A stretch of DNA of 64,000 nt, taken from Jiangella alba (GTDB taxonomy: Bacteria > Actinomycetota > Actinomycetes > Jiangellales > Jiangellaceae). The stretch covers positions 2,845,501 through 2,909,500 of the forward strand of contig NZ_FNUC01000003.1 in assembly GCF_900106035.1 (NCBI RefSeq). The letters run 5' to 3'. This document shows positions 21,427-35,299 of this stretch, piece by piece. A program made the position numbers and the translations under genes. Numbering within the stretch: the stretch's first letter is position 1; each line of letters opens with the position of its first letter. The notes beneath the pieces are model-generated. The model worked only from the letters and a program-made list of their open reading frames with translations. It did not search any database and was not told the DNA's origin.

Positions 21427-22386
21427 TCAGTGCAGCCGCACGCGCGGGTCCAGCCCGGCGTAGGCGACGTCGACGACGATGTTGGCGATGACCACCGCGG
21501 CCGACGCGACGAGCACGATCCCGATGATCACCGGCAGGTCCTGCCGGGTGATCGCGTCGACCGCGGTGTTGCCGAGGCCGGGCAGGCTGAACACCGTCTC
21601 GGTGACGACCGCGCCGCCGACCAGCTGGCCGAGGTCGATGCCGAACTGCGTCACCACCGGCGTCAGCGCCGCGCGCAGCCCGTGCCGGTAGATGACGCGC
21701 TGCTCGCTGATCCCCTTCGACCGGGCGGTGCGGATGTAGTCCTCACCCAGCACGTCGAGCATGGACGCGCGGGTGAGCCGGGTGTATGTCGCCGCCAGCA
21801 GCAGCGCCAGCGTGATCCACGGCAGCACCATGTGCTGGAACCACGCCACCGGGTCCTGCGCGAACGGGACGTAGCCGCCGGCCGGGAACCACGTCACGCC
21901 GCGCAGGGTCAGTTGGTAGTAGAAGACGTACAGCAGCAGGATGCCGAGCAGGAACGGCGGCATCGAGTAGAAGAACAGCGAGAACGCGGTCAGCCCGCGG
22001 TCCTCCAGCGAGCGCGGATGGGTCGCCGACAGCACCCCGTTGAACACGCCCAGCACCAGCCAGATGATCGACGCCCCGATCGCCAGCGACAGCGTGATCG
22101 GCAGCGCCTGCGCGATGATGTGCGTCACCGGCACCTGGTGGTAGTAGTCGTACCCGAGGTCGCCGTGCAGCGCACGCCAGACGAAGTCGAGGTACTGCTT
22201 CCAGACCGGCTGGTCCAGCCCGAGCCGGTGCTGGATCAGCGCGATCGTCTCCGGCGTCGCCTGCCGGCCGGCCAGCGTGCGGGCCACGTCGTTGGGCACC
22301 ACGAAGAACAGCGCGAACACCGCGACGGTGATGAGCCAGAGCACCACGAGGCCCTGGAGGATCCGGCGGATCAGGAACCGGGTCAC
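21427..22386 (-). CDS. Peptide/nickel-type ABC transporter permease (DppB/OppB type)
   Basis: This 319-residue inner-membrane permease begins 'RFLIRRILQGLVVLWLITV', as DppB proteins do, with the N-terminal 'RTLAGRQATPETIALIQHRLGLDQP' extracytoplasmic segment. It has six helices and the EAA-like loop 'EDYIRTARSKGISEQRVIYRHGLRAAL'. It starts with GTG, 10 nt after the DppC-type gene. It is part of the operon SBP, ATPase D, ATPase F, permease C, permease B, followed by secDF. Confidence 0.93.
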   Translation of the reverse strand: MTRFLIRRILQGLVVLWLITVAVFALFFVVPNDVARTLAGRQATPETIALIQHRLGLDQPVWKQYLDFVWRALHGDLGYDYYHQVPVTHIIAQALPITLSLAIGASIIWLVLGVFNGVLSATHPRSLEDRGLTAFSLFFYSMPPFLLGILLLYVFYYQLTLRGVTWFPAGGYVPFAQDPVAWFQHMVLPWITLALLLAATYTRLTRASMLDVLGEDYIRTARSKGISEQRVIYRHGLRAALTPVVTQFGIDLGQLVGGAVVTETVFSLPGLGNTAVDAITRQDLPVIIGIVLVASAAVVIANIVVDVAYAGLDPRVRLH

Positions 22387-22396
22387 GACAACCCCC

Positions 22397-23338
22397 TCAC
22401 CGGCGCAGTTGCTGCGAGAAGCGCGGGTCGAACGCGTCGCGCACGCCGTCGCCGAACAGGTTGAACGCCAGCGTCGTGATCAGCAGCGCGGCGCCGGGGA
22501 AGACGACGAACCACCAGGCCGTCGTGTAGTAGTTCTGCGCGGAGCTGATCATGCCGCCCCAGTCGGCGGTGGGCGGCGGCAGCCCGAGGCCCAGGAACGA
22601 CAGCGTCGCCTGGGTGACGATCACCACCGGCACCAGCAGCGTCGTGTAGACGATCACCGGCGCGAGCACGTTCGGCAGCACGTCGACGAACATGATCCGG
22701 ATCGACCCGGCGCCCAGCGAGCGGGCCGCCTCGACGTACTCGCGCTCCCGGATCGACAGCACCTGGCCGCGCACGATGCGGGCCACCGACGCCCAGCTGA
22801 AGAACCCGATCACCAGCACCGTCACCGTCATGCTCGGCCCGGTGACCGATACCAGCGCGATCGCGACCAGCAGGAACGGCACCGACAGCACGACGTCGAC
22901 GATGCGGGCCAGGACGGTGTCGAGCCAGCCGCCGACGTAGCCGGCGGCCAGCCCGACCAGCACGCCGATGACGACGGTCAGCCCCGTGGCGACGACGCCG
23001 ACCAGCAGCGACACGCGGGCGCCGTAGGCGATGCGGACCAGGATGTCGCGGCCGAGGTCGTCGGTGCCGAGCCAGAACGTGCTGTTCGGCGCCCGCGGCA
23101 GCCCCTCCGGCGACAGCCCGATGTCGCGGTACTGCTCGTTCGGCGGGTGCCCGGTGACGTGCGCGACCAGCGGCGCGGCGATCGCGACGACGACGATCAG
23201 CAGGATCACGACCAGCGAGATCATCGCCACCCGGTCGTGCCGCAGCCGCGACCACGCCAGCGCCCAGGTGCCGCGGCCCTCGATCGGCTTCGCCGTCGCG
23301 GCGGACGCCGTGACCGTCGCGACCGGCTGGGCGTTCAT
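22397..23338 (-). CDS. Peptide-type ABC transporter permease (DppC/OppC type)
   Basis: This 313-residue permease has a cytosolic N-terminus, then '[22 protein letters not shown]', the substrate-facing '[27 protein letters not shown]' motif typical of DppC, and the coupling loop '[26 protein letters not shown]'. It pairs with the DppB-type gene downstream. Its start overlaps the stop of the upstream ATPase gene by 4 bp. Confidence 0.93.
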
Positions 23339-24378
23339 CGCACGCCTCCCGGCACCGGCGCGGGCACCGCCGCGAGGTCCTCGCCGGCCCGCAGCGGGTG
23401 CCAGCAGGCGGCCCGGTGCTCGTCCGGGTCGCCGAGCACCGGCACGAGCGGCGGCTCGGCCAGCGCGCAGTCCTCGCGCGCCTTCGGGCAGCGCGGGTGG
23501 AACCGGCAGCCCGGCGGGGGCGCCACGGGCGACGGCACGTCACCGCCCAGGATCACCCGGCGGCGGCTGTCGGCGGCGTCGGGGTCGGCCACCGGCGCCG
23601 CCGACAGCAACGCCCGCGTGTACGGGTGCCGCGGGCGCTCGAACAGCACCTCCGAGGGCGCCAGTTCGACGATCTTGCCGAGGTACATGACGGCGATCCG
23701 GTCGCTGACGTGCCGCACGACGGACAGGTCGTGCGAGATGAACACGTAGGTCAGGCCGAGCTCCTGCCGCAGGTCGGCGAGCAGGTTGATGATCTGGCCC
23801 TGGATCGACACGTCCAGCGCCGACACCGGCTCGTCGCATACCAGCAGCCGCGGCCGCAGCGCCAGCGCCCGCGCGATGCCGATGCGCTGGCGCTGGCCGC
23901 CGGAGAACTCGGCCGGGAACCGGTTGTAGTGCTCCGGGTTCAGCCCGACCAGCTCCATCAGCTCCTGCACCCGGCGCTTGCGCTCGTGGCGTCCGGCCAG
24001 CCCGTGGATCGCGAACGGGTCGCCGATGATCGCGCCGACGCGGCGGCGCGGGTTCAGCGAGCCGAACGGGTCCTGGAAGATCATCTGCAGGTTCCGGCGC
24101 AGCGGCCGCATCCGCGCGCCGGACAGATGGGTGATGTCGGCGCCCTCGAAGAAGACCCGGCCGCCGGTCGGTTCCAGCAGCCGGGCCATGCAACGGGCCA
24201 GCGTCGACTTGCCGCAGCCGGTCTCGCCCACCAGCCCCAGCGTCTCGCCGGGCGCGACGTCGAGGCTGACCCCGTCCACGGCGTGCACCACCCCGCCCGG
24301 GCGGCCGGTGAGCGCGGACGCCCCGGCAGGGAACTCCTTGACCAGCCCCTCCACCCGAAGCAGCGGCTCGGTGTCCAT
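23335..24378 (-). CDS. Peptide ABC transporter ATP-binding protein (DppF/OppF type)
   Basis: The 347-residue ATPase has Walker A 'GETGCGKST', signature '[15 protein letters not shown]', Walker B '[12 protein letters not shown]' and the H-loop '[13 protein letters not shown]'. The C-terminal oligopeptide extension carries four conserved cysteines ('[17 protein letters not shown]', '...RAACWHPL'), which in relatives bind an iron-sulfur cluster. Its start overlaps the stop of the other ATPase gene by 1 nt. Confidence 0.93.
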
Positions 24379-25370
24379 CAGGCCGCCTCCTCCGCGCTCT
24401 GCTGCCGCGGCCGGTCCGCCGGCAGCCAGCAGGCCGACTGGTGCCGCGGGTCGGCCAGCACGCCGGCCAGCGGCGGGGTGATCGAGCAGCGCTCGAACGC
24501 GTACCGGCAGCGCGGCGCGAACGGGCAGCCCGGCGGCACCGCGATCAGGCTCGGCGGGCTGCCCGGGATCGGCCGCAGCCGCCCCGACACCTCGCCGCGC
24601 AGCGGCAGCGACGTCAGCAGTCCCTCGGTGTACGGGTGGTGGTAGCGGTAGAACAGCTCGCGCCGCGGCGCCCGCTCCATGGCCGCGCCGGCGTACATGA
24701 CGACGACGTCGTCGGCCAGCTCCGCGATCACGCCGAGGTCGTGCGTCACCATGATGATCGCGGTGCCGAACTCCTCCTGCAGCCGCCGCATCACGTCCAG
24801 CACCTGCGCCTGGACGGTGACGTCGAGCGCCGTCGTCGGCTCGTCCGCGATCAGCACCTCCGGCGAGAGCGCCATCGCCATCGCGATCATCACCCGCTGC
24901 CGCATGCCGCCGGAGAACTGGTGCGGGTAGTCGTCCACCCGGGTCTCCGGCCGCGGGATGCCGACCAGCCCGAGCAGGTCGGCGGCCCGCGTCCGCGCCT
25001 CCGCCCGCCCGACGTCCTCGTGCGCCCGGATGATCTCCTCGATCTGCCAGCCGATCCGGTGGTACGGATGCAGGCTGGACAGCGGATCCTGGAAGATCAT
25101 CCCGATCCGCGCGCCGCGCACCTCGCGCAGCTCCTCCTCGCTCGCCGTCAGCAGGTCCACCCCGTCCAGGCGGACGCTGCCCTCGACGTCGGCGCCGCGG
25201 GTGAGCCGGGTGATGGTCTGCACGGCCACCGACTTTCCCGACCCCGACTCCCCCACCAGGCCCAGCGTGGACCCCGCGGCCAGCGTGAACGACAGTCCCC
25301 GGACGGCGCGGACCACGCCGTCCGGGGTGTCGAACGAGACCCGGAGATCCTCGACCTCCAGCAGCGCCAT
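24378..25370 (-). CDS. Peptide ABC transporter ATP-binding protein (DppD/OppD type)
   Basis: The 330-residue partner ATPase has Walker A 'GESGSGKSV', signature '[15 protein letters not shown]', Walker B '[15 protein letters not shown]', and the C-terminal cysteine motif '[18 protein letters not shown]...SACWL'. Together with the DppF-type protein it forms the heterodimeric motor. The stop of the substrate-binding gene and this start are separated by 1 nt. Confidence 0.93.
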
Positions 25371-25371
25371 G

Positions 25372-27168
25372 TCAGCCGCCCTGCTCGCCCTTGGTCAGCC
25401 ACACGTTCGCCGGGTCGAAGTTCTGGAACGCCGGGATGTAGACGGCGTTGTTGACCTGCGACGCGTGGTAGTTCGCGTTGAGCGGATCGGTGATCGGGAA
25501 GAACACGGCGTCCTTCATGACCTGCTGGTCGGCCTGGTCCCACAGCTTGGCGGCGTCGTCCTTCGTCGCCGCCTGGGACGCCTGCTGGATCAGCGAGTCC
25601 AGGTCCGGGTTCTCGTAGAGGCCGAAGTTGCTGCCGGCCGGCGGGAACGACGGCGGGCCGGAGAACAGCGGCTTGAAGAACGACAGCGCCGCGTCGCCGT
25701 ACCAGTCCGGGCCCCACCCGGCCAGCGCCAGGTCCCACGTCCCGGCCTGCGCGACCGACGGCACCTGCAGGTACTTCGTGTAGAAGTCCGCGTTCGGCGA
25801 CGGCACGCCGGTGACGGTGATGCCGGCCTTCTGCAGGTCCTGCTGGGCCGTCTGGAACGCCTTGCTGCTGCCCTCGGACGCGTTGCGGTACAGGAACTTC
25901 AGCGTCAGCCCGTCCGGGTAGCCGGCGTCGGCGAGCAGCTGCTTCGCCTTGTCGACGTCGTACGGGTACAGGTCGGAGTCCTTGGACCCGTTGACCTCCT
26001 TCGGCAGCACGTGAGTCAGCGGCGGCGTCACCTTCGGCCCGCCCAGCACCTGGATGATGTCGTCCCGGTTGAGCGCGTACTCCAGCGCCTGCCGCACCTG
26101 CGGCTTGCTCAGCGCCGACGCGTTGTTCGGCGACGCCGTGTTGAACACGATGTACGGGTTGGTCGACGACGTGTCGCCCAGATTCAGGTTGGGGTCGTCA
26201 GCGCTCATCAGCCCGGCCAGCTGCGACGGCGGCACCTGCACGTCGAACTGCATGTCCGCCGACGGCGTGCCGGTCTGCAACTGCTGCTGGATGGAGTCCT
26301 GGCTGACCGTCTCGTCCACGACGATCTTGTCGACGTAGGCCTTGCGGATCGGGTCGGTGGACGAGTCCCACGACGGGTTGCGGGTGTAGGTGATCGACTT
26401 CGTCGGCTCCCACGACTCCACCTGGTACGGCCCGTCGGAGATCTCGTGCTGGCCCAGCTCGGTGCTGCCCGGCAGGTAGGCCATGACCTCCTCCGGCGCC
26501 GGCGAGAAGGCCGGCAGCGTCAGCATGTCGACGAAATACGTCGCCGGGTGCGTCAGCGTGAAGGTCACCGTCGTGTCGTCGGTCGCCGTGACTCCGGGCA
26601 GGTCGGTGGCGTCGATGTAGTTCGCGATCGACTTGGCGTCCTGCGGCACCTGCGCGAACCCGTCGCAGAAGTCCTGGTAGCCGACGATGAGGTCGGCGAA
26701 GTCCGGCGTGCCGCCGAACGGCTGCACCGGGTTGCAGGTGCGCTTGACGCCGCGGACGACGTCGGCGGCGGTCACCGCGCGGGCCGGGCTGGTGTTCCAG
26801 TTCACGCCGTCGCGCAGCGTGATCGTGTACGTCTTGCCGTCGGAGCTGATGCCGCCGTTGTCCTGCGTCGGCATGTCCTTGGCGAGGTCCGGGACGGCGG
26901 TGGTGGTCTTGCCGTCCTCGGCCGGGTAGGTGAACAGCTGCCGGCTCCACAGCCGCAGGTTCAGGTACCCGACGGAGTAGTAGCTGACGTTCGGGTCCAT
27001 GTAGTCCACGTCGCCCGCGCCCAGCATGTTGAGCGTGCCGCCGGTGACGGCTTCGCCCGTGGAGTTGCTTCCGGCGGCGCTGCCGCCGTTGCCCCCGCAC
27101 CCGGCGAGGGCCAGCAGGCCGGCCACGCCGATGACGGCGGCGGCCCATCGTGCTCTGGCGTGCCTCAT
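25372..27168 (-). CDS. Peptide-type ABC transporter substrate-binding lipoprotein (SBP_bac_5)
   Basis: The 598-residue lipoprotein has a signal peptide with lipobox 'LAGC' (Cys24) and a Gly/Ser-rich tether, then the family-5 binding-protein core ('ITLRDGVNWNTSPARAVTAADV' near residue 120, 'QALEYALNRDDIIQVL'). It would capture oligopeptides or similar solutes outside the cell. It is the promoter-proximal gene of the five-gene importer and is divergent from the response-regulator gene across a region with phased direct repeats. The substrate cannot be told from sequence; family members also carry nickel, heme or sugars. Confidence 0.92.
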   Translation of the reverse strand: MRHARARWAAAVIGVAGLLALAGCGGNGGSAAGSNSTGEAVTGGTLNMLGAGDVDYMDPNVSYYSVGYLNLRLWSRQLFTYPAEDGKTTTAVPDLAKDMPTQDNGGISSDGKTYTITLRDGVNWNTSPARAVTAADVVRGVKRTCNPVQPFGGTPDFADLIVGYQDFCDGFAQVPQDAKSIANYIDATDLPGVTATDDTTVTFTLTHPATYFVDMLTLPAFSPAPEEVMAYLPGSTELGQHEISDGPYQVESWEPTKSITYTRNPSWDSSTDPIRKAYVDKIVVDETVSQDSIQQQLQTGTPSADMQFDVQVPPSQLAGLMSADDPNLNLGDTSSTNPYIVFNTASPNNASALSKPQVRQALEYALNRDDIIQVLGGPKVTPPLTHVLPKEVNGSKDSDLYPYDVDKAKQLLADAGYPDGLTLKFLYRNASEGSSKAFQTAQQDLQKAGITVTGVPSPNADFYTKYLQVPSVAQAGTWDLALAGWGPDWYGDAALSFFKPLFSGPPSFPPAGSNFGLYENPDLDSLIQQASQAATKDDAAKLWDQADQQVMKDAVFFPITDPLNANYHASQVNNAVYIPAFQNFDPANVWLTKGEQGG

Positions 27169-27215
27169 GCCGCCATTCGACGCCCGGCGCCGGGGCGTGT
27201 CGCCGCCGCGCCGGT

Positions 27216-27288
27216 GGTTGTCACGGGTTCGCCATCTGCGCGGGCCGGTTCGTGACGCTGCGATGAAGGTTCGTCATGGTCGTCACGA
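27216..27288 (+). promoter_or_regulatory. Phased direct repeats, likely response-regulator binding sites, and RR promoter
   Basis: Five related 10-mers begin at 27216 (GGTTGTCACG), 27226 (GGTTCGCCAT), 27247 (GGTTCGTGAC), 27268 (GGTTCGTCAT) and 27278 (GGTCGTCACG). The spacings are 10, 21, 21 and 10 bp, that is one or two helical turns. OmpR-family regulators bind such head-to-tail repeats. The last two copies cover the -35 area of the regulator gene, whose likely -10 (CATACT, 27295-27300) is 6 nt before its ATG. Confidence 0.55.
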
Positions 27289-27306
27289 GAGCGTCATACT
27301 CGAGAC

Positions 27307-27990
27307 ATGACGCGCAGTGTGCTGCTCGTCGAGGACGACCAGCGGGTGCGGCGAGCCCTGCGGCTGGCGCTCGAGGACGAGGGCTACCAGGTCCGCGAGG
27401 CCGGCTCCGGCCGCGACGGGCTGGCCGAACTCACCCGCGACCCACCCGACGTCGTGCTGCTCGACCTCATGCTGCCCGACACCGACGGCTTCGCCGTGTG
27501 CCACCAGATCAGGCACACCAGCGCCGTCCCCGTCATCATGGTCACCGCCCGCACCGACAGCCACGACATCGTCGCCGGGCTCGAGGCGGGCGCCGACGAC
27601 TACGTCACCAAGCCGCTGGTCGCGAAGGAGCTGTCGGCCCGCATCCGGGCGCTGCTGCGGCGCACCGACAACGCGCCGGGCGGGGCGCCGCGGCGGCTGA
27701 CGTCCGGCGACCTCTCGATCGGCGTCGACGAAGGGGTCGTGACGCGCGACGGCTCGGCCCTGCCGCTCACCCAGACGGAGTTCAAGCTACTGGCCGAGCT
27801 GGCCCTGGCCGGCGGCAAGGTGCGCAGCCGGGAACAGCTGCTGGAGCGGGTCTGGGGGTACGGCTACTTCGGCGACAGCCGCATCGTCGACGTCCACGTC
27901 CGGCGGCTGCGCACGAAGGTCGAGCGCGACCCCGCGAGTCCGGCCCACGTGGTGACGGTGCGCGGCCAGGGCTACCGTCTGGTGCCGTGA
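27307..27990 (+). CDS. OmpR-family response regulator
   Basis: The 227-residue regulator has a receiver domain with Asp10-Asp11, phospho-acceptor Asp53 in 'VVLLDLMLPD', a conserved Thr in 'VTART' and Lys in 'VTKPL'. A winged helix follows (130-225, 'LPLTQTEFKLLAELALAGGKVRSREQLLERVWGYGYFGDSRIVDVHVRRLR'). Its stop overlaps the start of the kinase gene. It is probably leaderless. Likely targets are its own operon and the divergent peptide importer. Confidence 0.93.
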   Translation: MTRSVLLVEDDQRVRRALRLALEDEGYQVREAGSGRDGLAELTRDPPDVVLLDLMLPDTDGFAVCHQIRHTSAVPVIMVTARTDSHDIVAGLEAGADDYVTKPLVAKELSARIRALLRRTDNAPGGAPRRLTSGDLSIGVDEGVVTRDGSALPLTQTEFKLLAELALAGGKVRSREQLLERVWGYGYFGDSRIVDVHVRRLRTKVERDPASPAHVVTVRGQGYRLVP

Positions 27991-29390
27991 TGGCCTGGCG
28001 GCCGAGGCTGCGGCCGGGACTGCGCCACCGGGTCGTCCTGTGGTTCGGGCTGCTCGGCTTCGGGCTGTCGCTGCTGCTGGCGGTCACGGTGTGGGTGCTG
28101 CTGAGCCGGTTCCTCGTCACCGAGCAGGAGTCGACGGCGCTGACGGAGACGTCGGCGAACGCGACGGCGATCCAGCGCGGACTGTCGGCCAGCCAGAGCG
28201 ACATCGACGGCCTGCTCGCCGGCCTGCCCGCGGCGGACGGCCGGACGGCGGCGATGCTGCGGTGGGACGGGACGTGGCACGTGACGCCCGCGGGGACGTC
28301 GCCGGACGAGCTGCCCGCGGCGCTGCTGGCGACGGCCGAGGGCGGCCGGCCGGCGCAGGAGCGGGTCTCCGTCGACGGGACGACGCAGCTGGCGGTCGCG
28401 CTGCCGCTGAGCAACCCCGGCGACGTGTACGTCGAGCTCTACTCGCTGTCGTCACTGAACCGGGTGCTGCTGATCCTCGCCATCAGCCTCGTGGCCGGTG
28501 TCGTGCTGGCGACGGGGTTGGGGCTGGCGGTGGGGCGGGCGGCGGGCCGGCGGGCGCTGCGTCCGCTCGACGCCGTCAGCCGGACGGCGGCCCGGCTGGC
28601 CGCCGGTGACCTGCGCGTGCGTCTCGACGCCGGCGACGACCCCGACCTCGTCGAGCCGGCCGCGTCGTTCAACCGCACGGCCGAGGCGCTTCAGCAGCGG
28701 GTCGAGGCCGACACCCGGTTCGCCGCCGACGTCAGCCACGAACTGCGCACACCGCTCACGACGATGCTGAACTCGATGCAGCTGCTGCAGGCGCGGCAGG
28801 CGGATCTGCCGCCGGCGCTGCGCGAGCCGCTCGAGCTGCTGGCCGCCGAACTGGACCGGTTCCGCCAGCTGGTCGTCGACCTCCTCGAGATCTCCCGCGA
28901 CTCCGCCGCCGACGACCCCGGCGCCCGCGAGACCGTCGTCCTCGGCGACCTCGTCCGCCACTCCGCCGACTCCGCCGCCGGCCGCCCCGTCACCTCCGTC
29001 GACCCCGACGTCGCCGACGCGCTCGTGCTGGCCGACAAGCGGCGGCTGTCGCGGGTGGTGGCGAACCTCGTCGACAACGCCGAACTGCACGGCGGCGGCT
29101 GCCTGGCCGTCCGGGTCCTCGCGCACGACGGCCGGGTCCGCTTCGAGGTGGACGACGCCGGGCCGGGCGTGCCGGAGGACCGGCGCACGCGCGTCTTCGA
29201 CCGCTTCGCCCGCGACGGTGTCAGCGGCGGACGGGGTGGGCGCGGGGTGGGTCTCGGGCTGGCGATCGTGGCCCAGCACGTGCGCTGGCACGGCGGCGCC
29301 GTGACCGTCCTCGACCGCCCCGGCGGCGGCGCCCGCTTCGTCGTCGACCTCCCCGTCGTCCGCTCGTCCTCGGCCGGCTGGCGGACCTGA
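27990..29390 (+). CDS. Sensor histidine kinase
   Basis: The 466-residue membrane kinase has helix 1 (about 14-38), an extracytoplasmic sensor of about 115 residues, helix 2 (about 158-180), and HAMP (180-235). The HisKA box 'FAADVSHELRTPLTTM' carries His250, followed by an HATPase domain with 'NLVDNAELHGGG' (N box), 'DDAGPGVP' (G1) and 'GRGVGLGLAIV' (G2). It starts at ATG 27990, overlapping the response-regulator stop by 1 nt. The sensor region has no recognisable fold, so the signal is unknown. Confidence 0.92.
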   Translation: MAWRPRLRPGLRHRVVLWFGLLGFGLSLLLAVTVWVLLSRFLVTEQESTALTETSANATAIQRGLSASQSDIDGLLAGLPAADGRTAAMLRWDGTWHVTPAGTSPDELPAALLATAEGGRPAQERVSVDGTTQLAVALPLSNPGDVYVELYSLSSLNRVLLILAISLVAGVVLATGLGLAVGRAAGRRALRPLDAVSRTAARLAAGDLRVRLDAGDDPDLVEPAASFNRTAEALQQRVEADTRFAADVSHELRTPLTTMLNSMQLLQARQADLPPALREPLELLAAELDRFRQLVVDLLEISRDSAADDPGARETVVLGDLVRHSADSAAGRPVTSVDPDVADALVLADKRRLSRVVANLVDNAELHGGGCLAVRVLAHDGRVRFEVDDAGPGVPEDRRTRVFDRFARDGVSGGRGGRGVGLGLAIVAQHVRWHGGAVTVLDRPGGGARFVVDLPVVRSSSAGWRT

Positions 29391-29527: not shown

Positions 29528-31030
29528 TCAGCGTAGTGAGACCGCCGTCCACGAGACGGGCGGGAGCTCCAGCCGCAGCGTCCCGCCGTCCAGCACCGCC
29601 GACGGCGTCGGGCGCAGGCCGACGCGGGTGGGGTGGTCGAGGGTGTTGCGGGCGTGGACGTCGTCGTCCCAGAGGGTGACGGCCTCGGCGATCGACGTGG
29701 CGGCGACGTCGACCGAGACGGTCGCGGGTGCGTCGACCGACCGGTTGACCAGGAAGACCGACGTCGAGCCGGTGGCGGCGTCGTGCGTCGCCACCGCGTC
29801 GACCACCGGCACCTCACCGAGGGCGGACGTCGAGTACAGGGGCGACGACACGTCCACCGCCAGCGTCACGCCGCGGGCCAGCCGCGACGTCACCGCGAAC
29901 GGGAAGAACGTCGTCTGCCGCCACGCCGGCCCGCCCGGCTCGGTCATGATCGGCGCGATGACGTTCACCAGCTGCGCGAGGCTGGCCGCCGTCACGCGGT
30001 CGGCGTGGCGCAGCAGCGACATCAGCAGCCCGCCCACCACGACGGCGTCGGCGACGGTGTACGAGTCCTCCAGGATCCGCGGCGCCACGGGCCACACCTG
30101 CGGGTCCGTGACCTTGTCCTCGTCGTGGTAGCGGTCGACGTACCAGACGTTCCACTCGTCGAAGGAGATGTCGACGCGGCGCCGGCCCGGCCGCAGGGCA
30201 CGGACGTGGTCGATGGTGGCGACGACGGACTCGATGAAGCGGTCCATGTCGACCGGCGACGCGAGGAAGCCGGGCAGGTCGCCGGGCGTCTCGTGGTAGT
30301 ACGCGTGGCAGGAGAGGTAGTCGATCTCGTCGTACGTGTGCTCCAGGACGGTCCGCTCCCACGCGCCGAACGTCGGCATCTGCCGGTTCGAGCTGCCGCA
30401 CGCGACCAGCCGCACGCCGGGGTCCAGCTGCCGCATGGCCCGTGCGGTCTGGGCGGCCAGCTTGCCGTAGTCGTCGGCGCTGCGGTGGCCCAGCTGCCAC
30501 GGCCCGTCCATCTCGTTGCCCAGGCACCAGAGCACGACGCCGTGCGGGTCGGGCGTGCCGTTGGCGACCCGCAGATCGGCGAGCGTCGATCCGGACCGGA
30601 CGTTCGCGTACTCCAGCAGGTCCAGCGCCTCCTGCACGCCCCGGGTGCCGAGGTTGACGGCCAGCATCAGCTCGGTGCCGGCCTTCGCCGACCAGCGGGC
30701 GAACTCGTCCAGCCCGATCTCGTTCGTCTCCAGCGAGTGCCAGGCGAGGTCCAGCCGCCGCGGCCGGTCGGCGACCGGGCCGACGCCGTCCTCCCACCGG
30801 TAGCCCGAGACGAAGTTGCCGCCCGGGTAGCGGACGGTCGACACCCCCAGCTCGCGGACCAGCTCGATGACGTCCTTGCGGAAGCCGTCCTCGTCGGCGG
30901 TGGCGTGGCCGGGCTCGTAGACACCGTCGTACACCGCGCGGCCCAGGTGCTCGACGAACGAGCCGAACAGGCGCCGGTCGACGGCCCCGACGACGAACGA
31001 CGGATCGACGGTCAGCGATGCGTGCGGCAC
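29528..31030 (-). CDS. arfA: GH51 alpha-L-arabinofuranosidase
   Basis: The 500-residue cytosolic enzyme removes terminal alpha-L-arabinofuranosyl groups from arabino-oligosaccharides. It has the GH51 features 'RRLFGSFVEHLGRAVYDGVYEP', 'VSTVRYPGGNFVSGYRWEDGVG', acid/base Glu173 in 'WCLGNEMDGPW' and nucleophile Glu292 in 'SFDEWNVWYVDR', with a C-terminal beta-sandwich from about 390. There is no signal peptide, so it works on imported substrate. It is the last gene of the LacI-controlled sugar operon, directly after the GH1 gene. Confidence 0.96.
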   Translation of the reverse strand: MPHASLTVDPSFVVGAVDRRLFGSFVEHLGRAVYDGVYEPGHATADEDGFRKDVIELVRELGVSTVRYPGGNFVSGYRWEDGVGPVADRPRRLDLAWHSLETNEIGLDEFARWSAKAGTELMLAVNLGTRGVQEALDLLEYANVRSGSTLADLRVANGTPDPHGVVLWCLGNEMDGPWQLGHRSADDYGKLAAQTARAMRQLDPGVRLVACGSSNRQMPTFGAWERTVLEHTYDEIDYLSCHAYYHETPGDLPGFLASPVDMDRFIESVVATIDHVRALRPGRRRVDISFDEWNVWYVDRYHDEDKVTDPQVWPVAPRILEDSYTVADAVVVGGLLMSLLRHADRVTAASLAQLVNVIAPIMTEPGGPAWRQTTFFPFAVTSRLARGVTLAVDVSSPLYSTSALGEVPVVDAVATHDAATGSTSVFLVNRSVDAPATVSVDVAATSIAEAVTLWDDDVHARNTLDHPTRVGLRPTPSAVLDGGTLRLELPPVSWTAVSLR

Positions 31031-32248
31031 TCAGTTCTCCTTGGTCGTGGTGCGGGGATCGTGGGCGTGCGCCCGGAACCGGTCGACGAGCGGGGTGGGG
31101 ACGCGATACAGGACGCCGTCGCGCTCGGACAGCTCCCACAGGCCCATCGTCAGCCGGTGCGCCTCGCGCGGCTCGGTGGAATGCCGGTACGTCCACTCGT
31201 ACATGTCGAACACGGGCCACCAGGTGTAGGCGACGACGGGCACGCCGGACGCCCGCAGCCCGTGGACGGCCTCGACGGACGCGTCCAGCCAGGCCGCCCG
31301 CTCGGCGACGCTCCCCGTCACGCAGGTCTCGGTCAGCGCGACCGGCACCCCGTACCGCTCCCAGGCGTTGCGCAGCAGCTCCTCCAGGCCGAGCACGCCG
31401 TCGTCGCGGGTCGGACGGGGGTCGGCGAAGCCGCCGCCATGCGGGTCGGCCGCCGTGACGATCTCGGTGGAGTGCCGCGGGTAGTAGTTGACGCCCATGA
31501 CGTCGGGCTGGACGGCATGGTCGGCGAACCAGGCCAGTTCCGCGTCGGAGAAGCCGTCGGTGACCCGGCCGGTCACCAGGTCCTCCACCAGGTGCACCTG
31601 CCGGCGCAGCCGCGAGATCAGGGCCGCGTCGTCGCCGTCGTAGCGCATGCCGGCGTCGACGTGCACGAACACGCCGCGCTCCCCCAGCACGTCGCGCATC
31701 GCCCGCTGCGCGAGCACGAACCCGCGGGCCAGCTGCCGCACCATCGTCCGCAGGCCGGACGGCCCGGAGAGGTACGGCGGCCAGTACGCGTACTCGCCGG
31801 AGAACAGCGCGTGGATCATCGGCTCGTTCACCGGCGTGTAGTCGGTGACGCGGTCGGCATAGCGCTCGGCGACCCGGGCCGAGTACTCCGCCACGTGCGA
31901 CGGGTAGTCGGGGTGGGCGAACTGGCCGTCCAGCCACAGCGGCGTGCCGTAGTGCAGCAGGTCGACGACCGGCCGCAGCCCCAGCTCGGCGAACCGGTCC
32001 ATGACGCGGTCCAGCCACGACCAGTCCCACGCGCCCTCGGCCGGGTTGACGCGGTGCCACGGCACGCCCCAGCGCAGCAGCTCCGCGCCGGCCGACGAGG
32101 CCAGCCCGAGGTCGGACGACCAGAACTCGTAGTGCTGGGTCAGCTCGTACTCGTCGATGGCCCGCTCCCCCGGCCGCTGCTGCGGCACGAAGGTGTCCTC
32201 GACACCCAGCGCGAAGTGGAGCCGGCCGTCCAGATGCCACGCCGTCAT
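31031..32248 (-). CDS. GH1-family glycosidase
   Basis: The 405-residue protein has the GH1 barrel with acid/base Glu142 in 'YTPVNEPMIHA' and the nucleophile Glu307 in 'VPVALTETCVTG', where the usual ITENG is modified. It is shorter than typical GH1 enzymes (440-480) and begins late, lacking the usual FPxGFxWG start, which here reads 'LHFALGVEDTF'. It may be specific for an unusual beta-glycoside. ATG 32248 overlaps the permease stop by 4 bp. The 3' end abuts the GH51 gene. Cytosolic, acting on the sugar imported by the neighbouring ABC system. Confidence 0.8.
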   Translation of the reverse strand: MTAWHLDGRLHFALGVEDTFVPQQRPGERAIDEYELTQHYEFWSSDLGLASSAGAELLRWGVPWHRVNPAEGAWDWSWLDRVMDRFAELGLRPVVDLLHYGTPLWLDGQFAHPDYPSHVAEYSARVAERYADRVTDYTPVNEPMIHALFSGEYAYWPPYLSGPSGLRTMVRQLARGFVLAQRAMRDVLGERGVFVHVDAGMRYDGDDAALISRLRRQVHLVEDLVTGRVTDGFSDAELAWFADHAVQPDVMGVNYYPRHSTEIVTAADPHGGGFADPRPTRDDGVLGLEELLRNAWERYGVPVALTETCVTGSVAERAAWLDASVEAVHGLRASGVPVVAYTWWPVFDMYEWTYRHSTEPREAHRLTMGLWELSERDGVLYRVPTPLVDRFRAHAHDPRTTTKEN

Positions 32249-33075
32249 TTGATCCCCGTCGTCGCGATGCTCTCGATGAACCGCCGCTGCACCAGCAGGA
32301 ACGCGATCACCAGGGGCAGGATCGCCACCAGCGCGCCGGCCATCATGACGCCGTACGGGACGATGCCGCCCGGCCCGGTCAGCAGCGTCAGCCCGGACGT
32401 GATGGTGCCCATCTCGCGCTCGGTCGTGAAGATCAGCGGCCACAGCAGGTCGTTCCAGTTGTTGACGAACGTGAAGATCGCCAGCGTCAGCAGCGCGGGG
32501 ACGGCGTTCGGCAGCACGATGCTGCGGAAGATCCGCAGCTCCGACGCGCCGTCGATGCGGGCGGCGTTGTCGAGGTCGCGCGGCAGCGCCAGGAAGAACT
32601 GGCGCAGGAAGAAGATGCCGAACGCGTCGGCCGCCCGCGGCGCGATCAGCCCGGCGAACGTGTTGACCCAGCCGAGGTCGCTGACCAGCTGGTACACCGG
32701 CACCAGCGTCGCCTGGAACGGGATCATCAGCGTCGCGATGATCGCGATCAGCAGCGTCCGCCGCCCGGTGAAGTCGATGCGGGCCAGCGCGTACGCCGCC
32801 AGCGAGTCGAAGACCAGCGCGAACGCCGTCACGCCACCGGCGAACAGGAAGCTGTTCAGCACCAGCCGGGTGAACGGCAGCTCGTCGACGATGCGGCGCA
32901 GGTTGTCCAGCGTCCAGTCCTGCGGCAGCAGCGTGGGCGGGTACGCGTTGACCTCGGACACCGGCTTGAACGCCGTCAGCACGATGATGGCCAGCGGCAG
33001 CAGCACGGCGGCGGTGACGGCGAGCATGGCCACCGTGCCGAGGACGGTGCCCGGCCGGATGCGCGCGGCGTTCAC
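32245..33075 (-). CDS. Carbohydrate ABC transporter permease (MalG type)
   Basis: The 276-residue permease has six helices and the coupling motif 'DNAARIDGASELRIFRSIVLPNAVPAL', typical of MalG-like subunits of oligosaccharide importers. GTG 33075 overlaps the stop of the MalF-type gene (GTGA), and its own stop overlaps the GH1 start. Longer frames upstream lie inside the MalF-type gene. No ATPase gene is in this operon, so a shared MsiK-type ATPase elsewhere is expected. Confidence 0.93.
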   Translation of the reverse strand: MNAARIRPGTVLGTVAMLAVTAAVLLPLAIIVLTAFKPVSEVNAYPPTLLPQDWTLDNLRRIVDELPFTRLVLNSFLFAGGVTAFALVFDSLAAYALARIDFTGRRTLLIAIIATLMIPFQATLVPVYQLVSDLGWVNTFAGLIAPRAADAFGIFFLRQFFLALPRDLDNAARIDGASELRIFRSIVLPNAVPALLTLAIFTFVNNWNDLLWPLIFTTEREMGTITSGLTLLTGPGGIVPYGVMMAGALVAILPLVIAFLLVQRRFIESIATTGIK

Positions 33076-34025
33076 TGGGCGTCCTTCTCTCGGCGGCCGA
33101 AGAACACGAACTGGACGACGCTGAGCAGCAGCGTCGCGATCAGCAACACGTACGACAGCGCCGACGCGAAGCCCAGCTCCAGCTTGCGGAAGCCGGACTC
33201 GTAGATCTCCATGACGATGGTCTGGGTGTTGCCGTACGGCCCGCCGCCGGTCATGACGTAGATCTGGTCGAACGCCTGCAGCGCCGCGATCATCGCGAAC
33301 ACCAGCACGAACGCGAACGTGTTGGACAGCAGCGGCATGGTCACGTGCTGGAACCGCCGCCACGGCCCGGCGCCGTCGACGCGGGCCGCCTCGTATAGCG
33401 AGCCCGGGATGTCCTGCAGCCCGGCGAGGAAGATCACCAGGTAGAAGCCGAAGTTCTTCCACACCGCGACCAGCGCGACCGCCGGCATCGCCAGCTGCGG
33501 GTCCTCCAGCACGTTGCCCAGTTGCAGCCCGAGCCCGCCCAGCCAGTGGTTGAGCAGCCCGACCTGCGGGTCGATCAGGTACGTCCACGCGTACGCGGCC
33601 ACCGCCAGCGACACCACGAACGGCAGGAACAGCGCGGTGCGGAACAGGCCGCGGAACGGCAGCGCCGGGCTGTTCAGCACCAGCGCGAGACCCAGCGCGA
33701 CGATCACCGCCGTCGGCGTGAACAGCACCGTGTACCAGAGCGTGTTCGTGACCGCGTCGAACAGGTCGGGGTCGGTGAACACCTGGACGTAGTTGTCGAA
33801 CCCGACCCACTCGGCCTCGCCGAAGCCGCTGGCGTCGGTGAACGACGTGCGCAGCGCCGACACCATCGGCCAGCCGACGAAGACGGTGAGGATGAGCAGG
33901 GCCGGGCCGAGGAAGGCCAGCGCGGTGGCGCCGCGCCGGCCGCCGCGCCGGGCCCCGGGCGCCACCCGCCGCCCGCCCAGTGGCGCGGGCGGCCGGTAGC
34001 GCCGTCGTGGTGCGGTGAGGGACAC
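33072..34025 (-). CDS. Carbohydrate ABC transporter permease (MalF type)
   Basis: The 317-residue partner permease starts at GTG 34025, 5 nt downstream of the binding-protein stop. A basic, proline-rich N-terminus (2-35) precedes six helices. The EAA motif is 'LYEAARVDGAGPWRRFQHVTMPLL', and 'QIYVMTGGGPYGNTQTIVMEIYESGF' is typical of the family. It forms the channel with the MalG-type protein. Confidence 0.92.
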   Translation of the reverse strand: MSLTAPRRRYRPPAPLGGRRVAPGARRGGRRGATALAFLGPALLILTVFVGWPMVSALRTSFTDASGFGEAEWVGFDNYVQVFTDPDLFDAVTNTLWYTVLFTPTAVIVALGLALVLNSPALPFRGLFRTALFLPFVVSLAVAAYAWTYLIDPQVGLLNHWLGGLGLQLGNVLEDPQLAMPAVALVAVWKNFGFYLVIFLAGLQDIPGSLYEAARVDGAGPWRRFQHVTMPLLSNTFAFVLVFAMIAALQAFDQIYVMTGGGPYGNTQTIVMEIYESGFRKLELGFASALSYVLLIATLLLSVVQFVFFGRREKDAQ

Positions 34026-34030
34026 CGGGC

Positions 34031-35299
34031 CTACCCGAGCGCCGATTCGATCTCGGCCTGCGCCTCGGACAGCAGCGTCGCGACGTCCTCGCCGGCCATC
34101 GCCCGCTGGGTCAGCTCGTCGACCGCCGTCAGCACGTCGACGCTGTTCACGACGCCGGGCAGCAGCGGCCGGCCGAACTCGGCCTGCTCGGTGAGCGCGG
34201 CCACCACCGGGTTCTCGGCGACGGCGTCGGCGGGGACGTCGGTGCGCAGCGGCGGCCAGCCGGAGCCGAGCGACCACGTCACCGCGTTCTCCTGGTCGAG
34301 GAAGAAGCTGAAGAACCGCTCCGCCGCCTCGACGGCGTCGTCGCCGGCCTGCTCGGTGATGGCCATCGAGACGCCGATGGCCGACGCCGCCTGCGCCTGC
34401 GGCCCGGCCGGCACCGGCGCGATGCCGTAGTCGATGCCGTTCTCCTCCGAGATCGACGCCATCCACGGCCCGCCGAGGTACATGGCGGCCTTGCCACTGC
34501 TGAACAGCCCGTCGCCGGCGATGCCGTCGACACCCGTCGGCGAGATCTGGTCCACCGCGATGGCCTGGTACCAGTACTCCAGCGTCGCGCGGTTCTCCGG
34601 CGAGTCGATGACGACGTCGGTGCCGCCGTCGACGATGTCGCCGCCACCACCGTAGAAAAGGCTGGGCCAGACGCCGTTCGCGACCGTCGCGTGGTCCGGG
34701 ATGGCGGCGCCGTACTGCTCGGGCGTGCCGTCGCCGTTCTGGTCGACGGTGAGCGCCTTGGCCGTCTCGACCCAGTCGTCCCAGGTGGCCGGCGGCTCGG
34801 TGATGCCGGCGGCGGCGAACAGCGCCTTGTTGTAGAACATCGCCAGCGGGACGAACCCGGTCGGCACGCCGTAGCGGGTGCCCTCGACCGTCACCATCTC
34901 GACGGCGCCGGCGTTGAGCTCCGCGGTGTTGCTCTCGGGGTCGTCGTAGAAGTCGTCCAGCTCGACGAACGCGCCGCGGTCGGCGTAGACGGGCAGCCGC
35001 TCGGCCGGCATCGCGACGATGTCCGGGCCGTTCCCGGCCGACAGCGCCGGCAGCAGCGTGTCGTCGATGACGTCCCACGGGTTGATCTCGGTGCTGACCA
35101 CGACCTCGTCCTGCGAGGCGTTGAAGTCGTCCACGAGCTGCTCGAGCACGTCGCCGTCGGCCTCGGTGTACCCGTGCCAGAAGGTGAGCTCGACGGGGCC
35201 GCCGGCGGAGTCGCCGCCGGAGTCGTCGCCGTCGCCGCAGGCCGTGAGACCGGCCGCGAGCGCGAGGACGAGCCCCATCGTGAGGCGGTTGCGTGTCAT
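34031..35299 (-). CDS. Sugar ABC transporter substrate-binding lipoprotein (family 1)
   Basis: The 422-residue lipoprotein has a lipobox 'LTAC' (Cys21) and the MalE-like core ('VELTFWHGYTEADGDVLEQLVDDFNAS', 'PPATWDDWVETAKAL', 'KAAMYLGGPWMAS'). It is the first gene of the operon: binding protein, two permeases, GH1, GH51. The GH content suggests arabinose-containing oligosaccharides as substrate. Ribosome site AAGGA stands about 8 nt before the ATG. Transcription starts inside the LacI operator upstream. Confidence 0.93.
   Translation of the reverse strand: MTRNRLTMGLVLALAAGLTACGDGDDSGGDSAGGPVELTFWHGYTEADGDVLEQLVDDFNASQDEVVVSTEINPWDVIDDTLLPALSAGNGPDIVAMPAERLPVYADRGAFVELDDFYDDPESNTAELNAGAVEMVTVEGTRYGVPTGFVPLAMFYNKALFAAAGITEPPATWDDWVETAKALTVDQNGDGTPEQYGAAIPDHATVANGVWPSLFYGGGGDIVDGGTDVVIDSPENRATLEYWYQAIAVDQISPTGVDGIAGDGLFSSGKAAMYLGGPWMASISEENGIDYGIAPVPAGPQAQAASAIGVSMAITEQAGDDAVEAAERFFSFFLDQENAVTWSLGSGWPPLRTDVPADAVAENPVVAALTEQAEFGRPLLPGVVNSVDVLTAVDELTQRAMAGEDVATLLSEAQAEIESALG

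Follow-up and report, generated by a model that had tools for sequence, protein, structure and literature searches.

The window (the whole 64-kb stretch of DNA that was analysed) contains a divergent intergenic gap of 138 bp (27169–27306), delimited by open reading frame boundaries, which holds the entire repeat array described below. To the right of the gap, on the forward strand, lies the gene for an OmpR/PhoB-type response regulator of 227 amino acids (27307–27990), composed of a REC domain and a Trans_reg_C domain (PF00072, 108.6 bits, and PF00486, 94.2 bits, both above the gathering score). It is followed on the same strand by the gene for a sensor histidine kinase of 466 amino acids (27990–29390), with HAMP, HisKA and HATPase_c domains. 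To the left, on the reverse strand, lie the genes of an ABC importer: a solute-binding lipoprotein of 598 amino acids (25372–27168; SBP_bac_5, PF00496), and then two ATPases with oligo_HPY domains and two permeases with BPD_transp_1 domains (21427–25370; Pfam assignments). This gene set is that of a peptide-type importer of the family-5 type. Beyond the two-component system, the region 29528–35299 holds apparent glycosidases and a sugar-type ABC importer, labels that come from a reading of the translations.

The curated NCBIfam model closest to the regulator is that of MtrA (NF040689). However, the regulator scores 258.7 bits, short of the cut-off of 300, and a separate, true MtrA gene elsewhere in the same genome reaches 385 bits; the identification of the regulator as MtrA was therefore rejected.

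The regulator and its importer in relatives

Orthologs of the regulator were sought by protein search and counted per taxon at fixed E thresholds. A near-identical regulator is present in 3 of the 12 genomes of the window's genus, its own included. At E ≤ 1e-90, orthologs were found in 6 of the 393 genomes of the class sample; at E ≤ 1e-88, in 5/341 genomes of one family, 2/17 of another, 34/38 of Kribbella and 17/186 of the family of Pedococcus; and at E ≤ 1e-80, in one of six genomes of the genus of Mumia. A solute-binding protein ortholog is divergent from the regulator in 65 loci, 54 of which have a distinct upstream sequence and all show the identical divergent layout. Three loci added later bring these to 57 importer loci, a set found through the regulator and rich in Kribbella. 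The solute-binding protein ortholog is 62–95% identical across the importer loci. The importer gene set as a whole adjoins the regulator in loci L001–L003 and L005, and likewise in L004 as far as the examined stretch reaches. Seen from the importer's side, co-occurrence rests on 25 genomes: an importer ortholog (E ≤ 1e-100) is absent from all nine congeners and all four Kribbella genomes that have no regulator. One locus (L187, G818:C93:57000-62500) joins a regulator of this type to a peptide importer in a different way: a regulator ortholog (67%) lies directly downstream of, and codirectional with, two peptide-importer ATPase genes (52% and 58% identical to those of the window), with neither an array nor a close solute-binding protein ortholog.

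Promoters were judged from a conserved hexamer and are predictions; a general sigma-70 promoter scan found no promoter for either gene. On the regulator side, a −10-like box, CATACT (27295–27300, forward strand), stands 6 nt before the ATG. A hexamer with at least five of the six consensus letters, 5–7 nt before the start, is found in 50 of 57 loci. Applied at seven shifted control places, the same search succeeded in 0, 2, 2, 4, 0, 25 and 2 of the 57 loci, the one high value being that at shift 35. With the box so placed, the regulator transcript would be leaderless. On the importer side, a possible −10-like box, TCGAAT (27175–27180, reverse strand), also lies 6 nt before the ATG; it is weak and was picked out by eye in the window sequence only.

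A conserved GTCA repeat with an 11-bp spacing

A sequence-only reading of the gap had described five phased direct repeats, 10-mers resembling GGTTSGTCA at 27216 (GGTTGTCACG), 27226 (GGTTCGCCAT), 27247 (GGTTCGTGAC), 27268 (GGTTCGTCAT) and 27278 (GGTCGTCACG). The words, their places and their spacings of 10, 21, 21 and 10 bp were all reproduced. The resemblance to GGTTSGTCA holds for the three middle copies (at most one mismatch) and fails for 27216 and 27278, which carry 4 and 5 mismatches and can be fitted only if a one-base gap is allowed. None of 5,000 dinucleotide shuffles of the intergenic gap reached three matches with at most one mismatch, although this comparison is post hoc, because the motif was derived from the same sequence. 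Five GTCA/TGAC words, as present in the gap, were reached in 0.36% of 5,000 such shuffles.

Comparison with relatives places the repeat in a different register. Counted on the same strand in the 54 distinct upstream regions (170 bp each), GTCA pairs number 96 at a spacing of 11 bp (shuffle mean 0.38, largest value 3 in 200 shuffles) and 31 at 22 bp (shuffle mean 0.52), versus 0 at 10 bp, 1 at 21 bp, 5 at 9 bp and 7 at 12 bp. After removal of similar regions, the 46 that are left still hold 73 pairs at 11 bp. The letters around 170 half-sites give the consensus YGTCAH, without GGTT. The GGTTSGTCA unit itself (at most one mismatch) occurs in the 54 regions only 12 times on the forward strand and twice on the reverse strand, and a search of the window's whole genome for two such units 10–12 bp apart gave no match. 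On the 10/21-bp counts and the rarity of the unit, the GGTTSGTCA register was rejected. The array is real and conserved in orthologous loci, where its half-sites run head to tail 11 bp apart in the manner of an OmpR-type tandem operator; what had been misread is the repeat. The supposed pattern of two pairs and one single site gives way to the 11-bp and 22-bp spacing of GTCA, and a placement of all copies on one face of the helix, as judged from the spacing, is roughly right in either register. A register taken from one sequence (10/21 bp, GGTT) can thus be corrected by relatives (11 bp, GTCA).

Two explanations of the original copies lose most of their ground here. Chance repeats in a GC-rich gap would fit the negative promoter scan and the abundance of GGTTSGTCA in the window (34 matches with at most one mismatch against 22.7 expected), but the 11-bp peak in relatives and the profile matches obtained from other genera (below) refute chance as far as sequence allows, and we give it practically no weight. 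We regard as very improbable a separate, genus-specific element made of the GGTTCG-centred repeats that lie 21 bp apart at 27226, 27247 and 27268. Its three matches stand out in the shuffles and its first two copies are identical across three congeners, but the third copy is not conserved in two congeners, the 54 regions contain no more than four GGTT pairs at 21 bp, and the motif was chosen after sight of the same sequence.

In the frame shared with relatives, the window begins with GTCA at 27220–27223 (forward strand, within TGTCAC), which is the same in both congeners, followed 11 bp on by the degenerate GCCA at 27231–27234 (forward strand), which aligns to a model half-site and is also the same in both. 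After a step of 22 bp comes a reverse-strand half-site, read as TGAC on the forward strand (27253–27256), recognized by congener comparison and a profile match. It is followed 11 bp on by the degenerate TGAA (27264–27267, reverse strand), which is TGAC in both congeners. Both opposed groups are retained in the window, with weak members: two of these four half-sites are degenerate. A third group, in forward orientation, consists of GTCA at 27273–27276 (inside the earlier copy at 27268 and present in all three congeners), 9 bp on at 27282–27285, and a further 11 bp on at 27293–27296, where sequence and congener comparison place it overlapping the −10-like box. This corrected list shows that the conserved site inside the 27247 copy has the opposite direction and that the sites at 27264 and 27293 had been overlooked.

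The third group is found in the window and two congeners with the same inner spacing (9 and 11 bp). Its offsets from the regulator start codon are −34/−25/−14 in the window and −47/−38/−27 and −62/−53/−42 in the congeners, that is, 13 and 28 bp further upstream. Because these offsets vary, the phase of the regulator-side group to the promoter is not kept. Comparison of the gap (27169–27306) with congener loci L082 and L083 reveals that the stretch at the −10-like box differs by 28 and 13 bp, and that in the window this length difference places the third group onto the regulator promoter. The shift would be explained most simply by the 28-bp length difference beside the box.

Across the 57 importer loci, strict 11-bp pairs run in both directions in 28; 11 loci have only a forward pair, 10 only a reverse pair and 8 neither. 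Where both groups are intact, the forward group is nearer the importer and the reverse group nearer the regulator, the two facing each other. Between the last forward and the first reverse half-site, the separation was measurable in 30 loci; it is 21–24 bp in 28 of these, and 34 and 42 bp in the others. Repeat unit, spacing, layout and conservation are all evident in these loci. At least one 11-bp pair is found in 46 of the 54 importer-linked regions. Among 105 regions taken from upstream of the regulator's other relatives, only 15 have such a pair, with 17 pairs in all (mean 0.5), and 6 of the 15 resemble one Nonomuraea-type promoter. Because such pairs also occur in these other regions, 11-bp GTCA-type repeats are a wider habit of related regulators, far denser at the importer locus.

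Profiles built from relatives identified the gap within the window. A hidden Markov model from 36 cores of other genera has its three best matches of the 64 kb there (E = 0.0025, 0.014 and 0.015). A second, ungapped model gives one clear match in the gap (E = 0.0061), and its second- and third-ranked matches fall elsewhere. A covariance model using sequence only (R1), made from 23 of these non-congener cores, has its four best matches within the gap (E = 2e-05, 1.8e-04, 1.3e-03 and 6.5e-03; next in the window, 0.065); its match at 27220–27266 (E = 2e-05) begins with the first GTCA, and that at 27276–27305 (E = 0.0013) contains the GTCA at 27282. Because the cores were chosen on the reverse pair, its constancy in the profiles is a product of selection; in the 23-core profile, conservation also reaches at least 90% for G, C, A, C and, further on, A, G, A of the forward group. 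In a whole-genome search, in which scoring covered the best 150 first-look candidates per genome, the locus ranks first in the window's genome (G000; 0.0023) and in the two congeners with the regulator, G001 (3.6e-06) and G007 (0.00126). The margin in the window's genome is small, since unrelated best matches in congeners without the regulator reach 0.003–0.018, and only G001 stands far above this background.

Importer losses and the two groups

Natural losses of the importer separate the importer-side from the regulator-side operator. In the regulator tree, three regulators (L144, L152 and L182) are nested in importer-bearing Kribbella clades and have no importer beside them; because of this nesting, the importer has probably been lost three times. 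Its absence holds genome-wide for G745 and G717 and, in G738 (L182), locally, over some 1.7 kb upstream. The forward group is missing from all three loci and the reverse group from two: L144 and L152, which retain regulator and kinase, have no 11-bp pair, and in L182 the reverse pair alone remains. All three retain the −10-like box of the regulator. This pattern points to a forward group that serves the importer and a reverse group that serves the regulator, the regulator-side group being dispensable.

A counter-example is L184 (G730), where the importer is broken and yet the forward pair is kept and the strict reverse pair gone, which does not fit the pattern of the three losses. What is left of the importer there (G730:C11:1442500-1446200) is residues 129–231 of the solute-binding protein, residues 275–306 of one permease and a piece of the other; the regulator and kinase beside these remnants look intact. 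L183, L170 and L122 also have no importer beside the regulator and no pair, but they do not represent nested losses comparable to the three above. In Blastococcus (L007 and L020), an 11-bp pair lies upstream of the regulator without an importer, which makes autoregulation in some lineages plausible; these two regulators may control themselves.

The sequence-only reading had predicted that the regulator controls both divergent operons and itself. Recast in the 11-bp register, with one integrated array needed in both directions, such equal control is favoured by the presence of both groups in 28 of 57 importer loci at a mostly constant distance of about two helical turns, by the reverse group that L182 keeps without an importer, and by the Blastococcus pairs. 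However, L144 and L152 keep regulator, kinase and −10-like box and have no pair, and in the three congeners the third group sits at distances from the start codon that differ by 13 and 28 bp. The differing fates of the two groups weaken the prediction, and we consider equal control unlikely. An OmpR-type regulator adjoining a conserved array in the divergent gap is borne out by the domains and by the conservation in orthologous loci, a check that the sequence-only reading had itself proposed. The original observation is partly confirmed and its interpretation partly supported.

A candidate operator and its known counterparts

The reading we favour, with a probability of roughly 0.6, is that the array is a local operator of its cognate regulator, chiefly for the importer, with autoregulation secondary. 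The gap would then be a shared operator of the local two-component system, and the phosphorylated regulator, the presumed binder, would occupy YGTCAH half-sites 11 bp apart as head-to-tail dimers. The ancestral layout would comprise two or three forward sites on the importer side and two reverse sites on the regulator side, the two groups being about 22 bp apart. Lying upstream of the importer core promoter, the forward group would most likely recruit RNA polymerase there and so activate transcription; because it disappears with the importer, the importer appears to be its main job. The reverse group, joined by the third forward group in the window's genus, would face the leaderless regulator promoter and adjust the level of the regulator. 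Precise geometry seems not to be needed on this side, because the distance of the third group changes among congeners. In this species, autorepression is weakly suggested, because the third group of the window covers the −35 to −10 stretch. Running counter to the favoured reading are the 8 of 57 importer loci without a strict 11-bp pair, the two degenerate half-sites of the window, the forward pair kept at L184, the small genome-wide margin and single clear match of the ungapped model, and the spread of triple GTCA repeats over other genomes (below).

A stronger version, which we hold only tentatively, is a two-component system dedicated to peptide sensing, with the adjacent importer as essentially its only target and with two opposed tandem operators, each of which can be lost without the other. 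If so, the importer-facing operator would vanish with the importer while the regulator-facing one could stay, and the natural losses in Kribbella would constitute a ready series of operator deletions. We found no paper on this two-component system in the open-licence literature; the result offers a testable candidate operator and a likely target for it. The arrangement is otherwise ordinary, direct repeats in the style of AfsQ1, MtrA and PhoP being already known.

The closest likeness is to AfsQ1/AfsQ2-sigQ of Streptomyces coelicolor. The AfsQ1 site is a GTnAC-n6-GTnAC direct repeat with an 11-bp period, and a review states that AfsQ1 raises the divergent sigQ and not its own operon (PMC6988585). 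An OmpR-family regulator, the 11-bp period and a target (here a likely one) divergent from the regulator operon are common to both, and action on sigQ first resembles the importer-first reading here. Relatives share the 11-bp period; in the window, GTCAC occurs at 27220 and 27282, with GCCAT and GTCAT as partners. Unlike in AfsQ1/AfsQ2, the neighbour here is a peptide importer (SBP_bac_5) and not a sigma factor, with no sigQ gene at the locus; the arrays comprise two opposed groups with as many as five sites; and several half-sites are GTCAT or GTCAA in place of GTnAC. The likeness drawn here is one of layout and repeat; identity with the AfsQ1/sigQ locus was rejected on gene content. The PHO boxes of PhoP, direct repeats of 11-nt units to which a dimer of the OmpR family binds (PMC6988585), share the unit length. 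However, no exact GTTCACC core is present on either strand of the 138-bp gap, the nearest words being GTTCGCC (27227), GTTCGTG (27248) and GTTCGTC (27269), 21 bp apart, and no phosphate genes are adjacent.

It is also conceivable that these sites serve MtrA, or a further regulator of the genome that binds GTCA, in place of the neighbour. The published MtrA sites of Streptomyces and Mycobacterium are GTnAC (GTCAC-like) direct repeats with 5–6 bp between them (PMC13189361), the genome has its own true MtrA gene, and 11-bp pairs resembling TGACACAACCATGACA stand upstream in six Nonomuraea-type relatives of the regulator, which may be mtrA genes. The loss pattern by itself does not tell MtrA from the neighbouring regulator. 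Nevertheless, the array is a local one, in contrast to the global regulon of MtrA; it belongs to a single locus that has a regulator of its own, where it disappears together with the importer, and the 300 bp upstream of mtrA in G000, G007 and G001 hold no 11-bp pair. We judge use by such a regulator instead of the neighbour improbable; cross-binding by MtrA- or AfsQ1-type regulators is possible, because these recognize similar repeats (PMC13189361, PMC6988585). The Nonomuraea-type pair is common to L059, L064, L067, L068, L073 and L093, where it lies about 100 bp upstream of a 54–55% regulator relative.

Triple GTCA repeats (9–11 bp, then 11 bp) are found in all 50 genomes searched, and among the matches listed the window's genome has four, one of them here; the GTCA half-site is therefore not private to the neighbouring regulator. 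Further triple GTCA(G) 11-bp repeats in the window's genome, at G000:C3:52362-52387 (L218) and G000:C4:2662097-2662122 (L220), are near-identical in several congeners without the regulator and are probably sites of another regulator.
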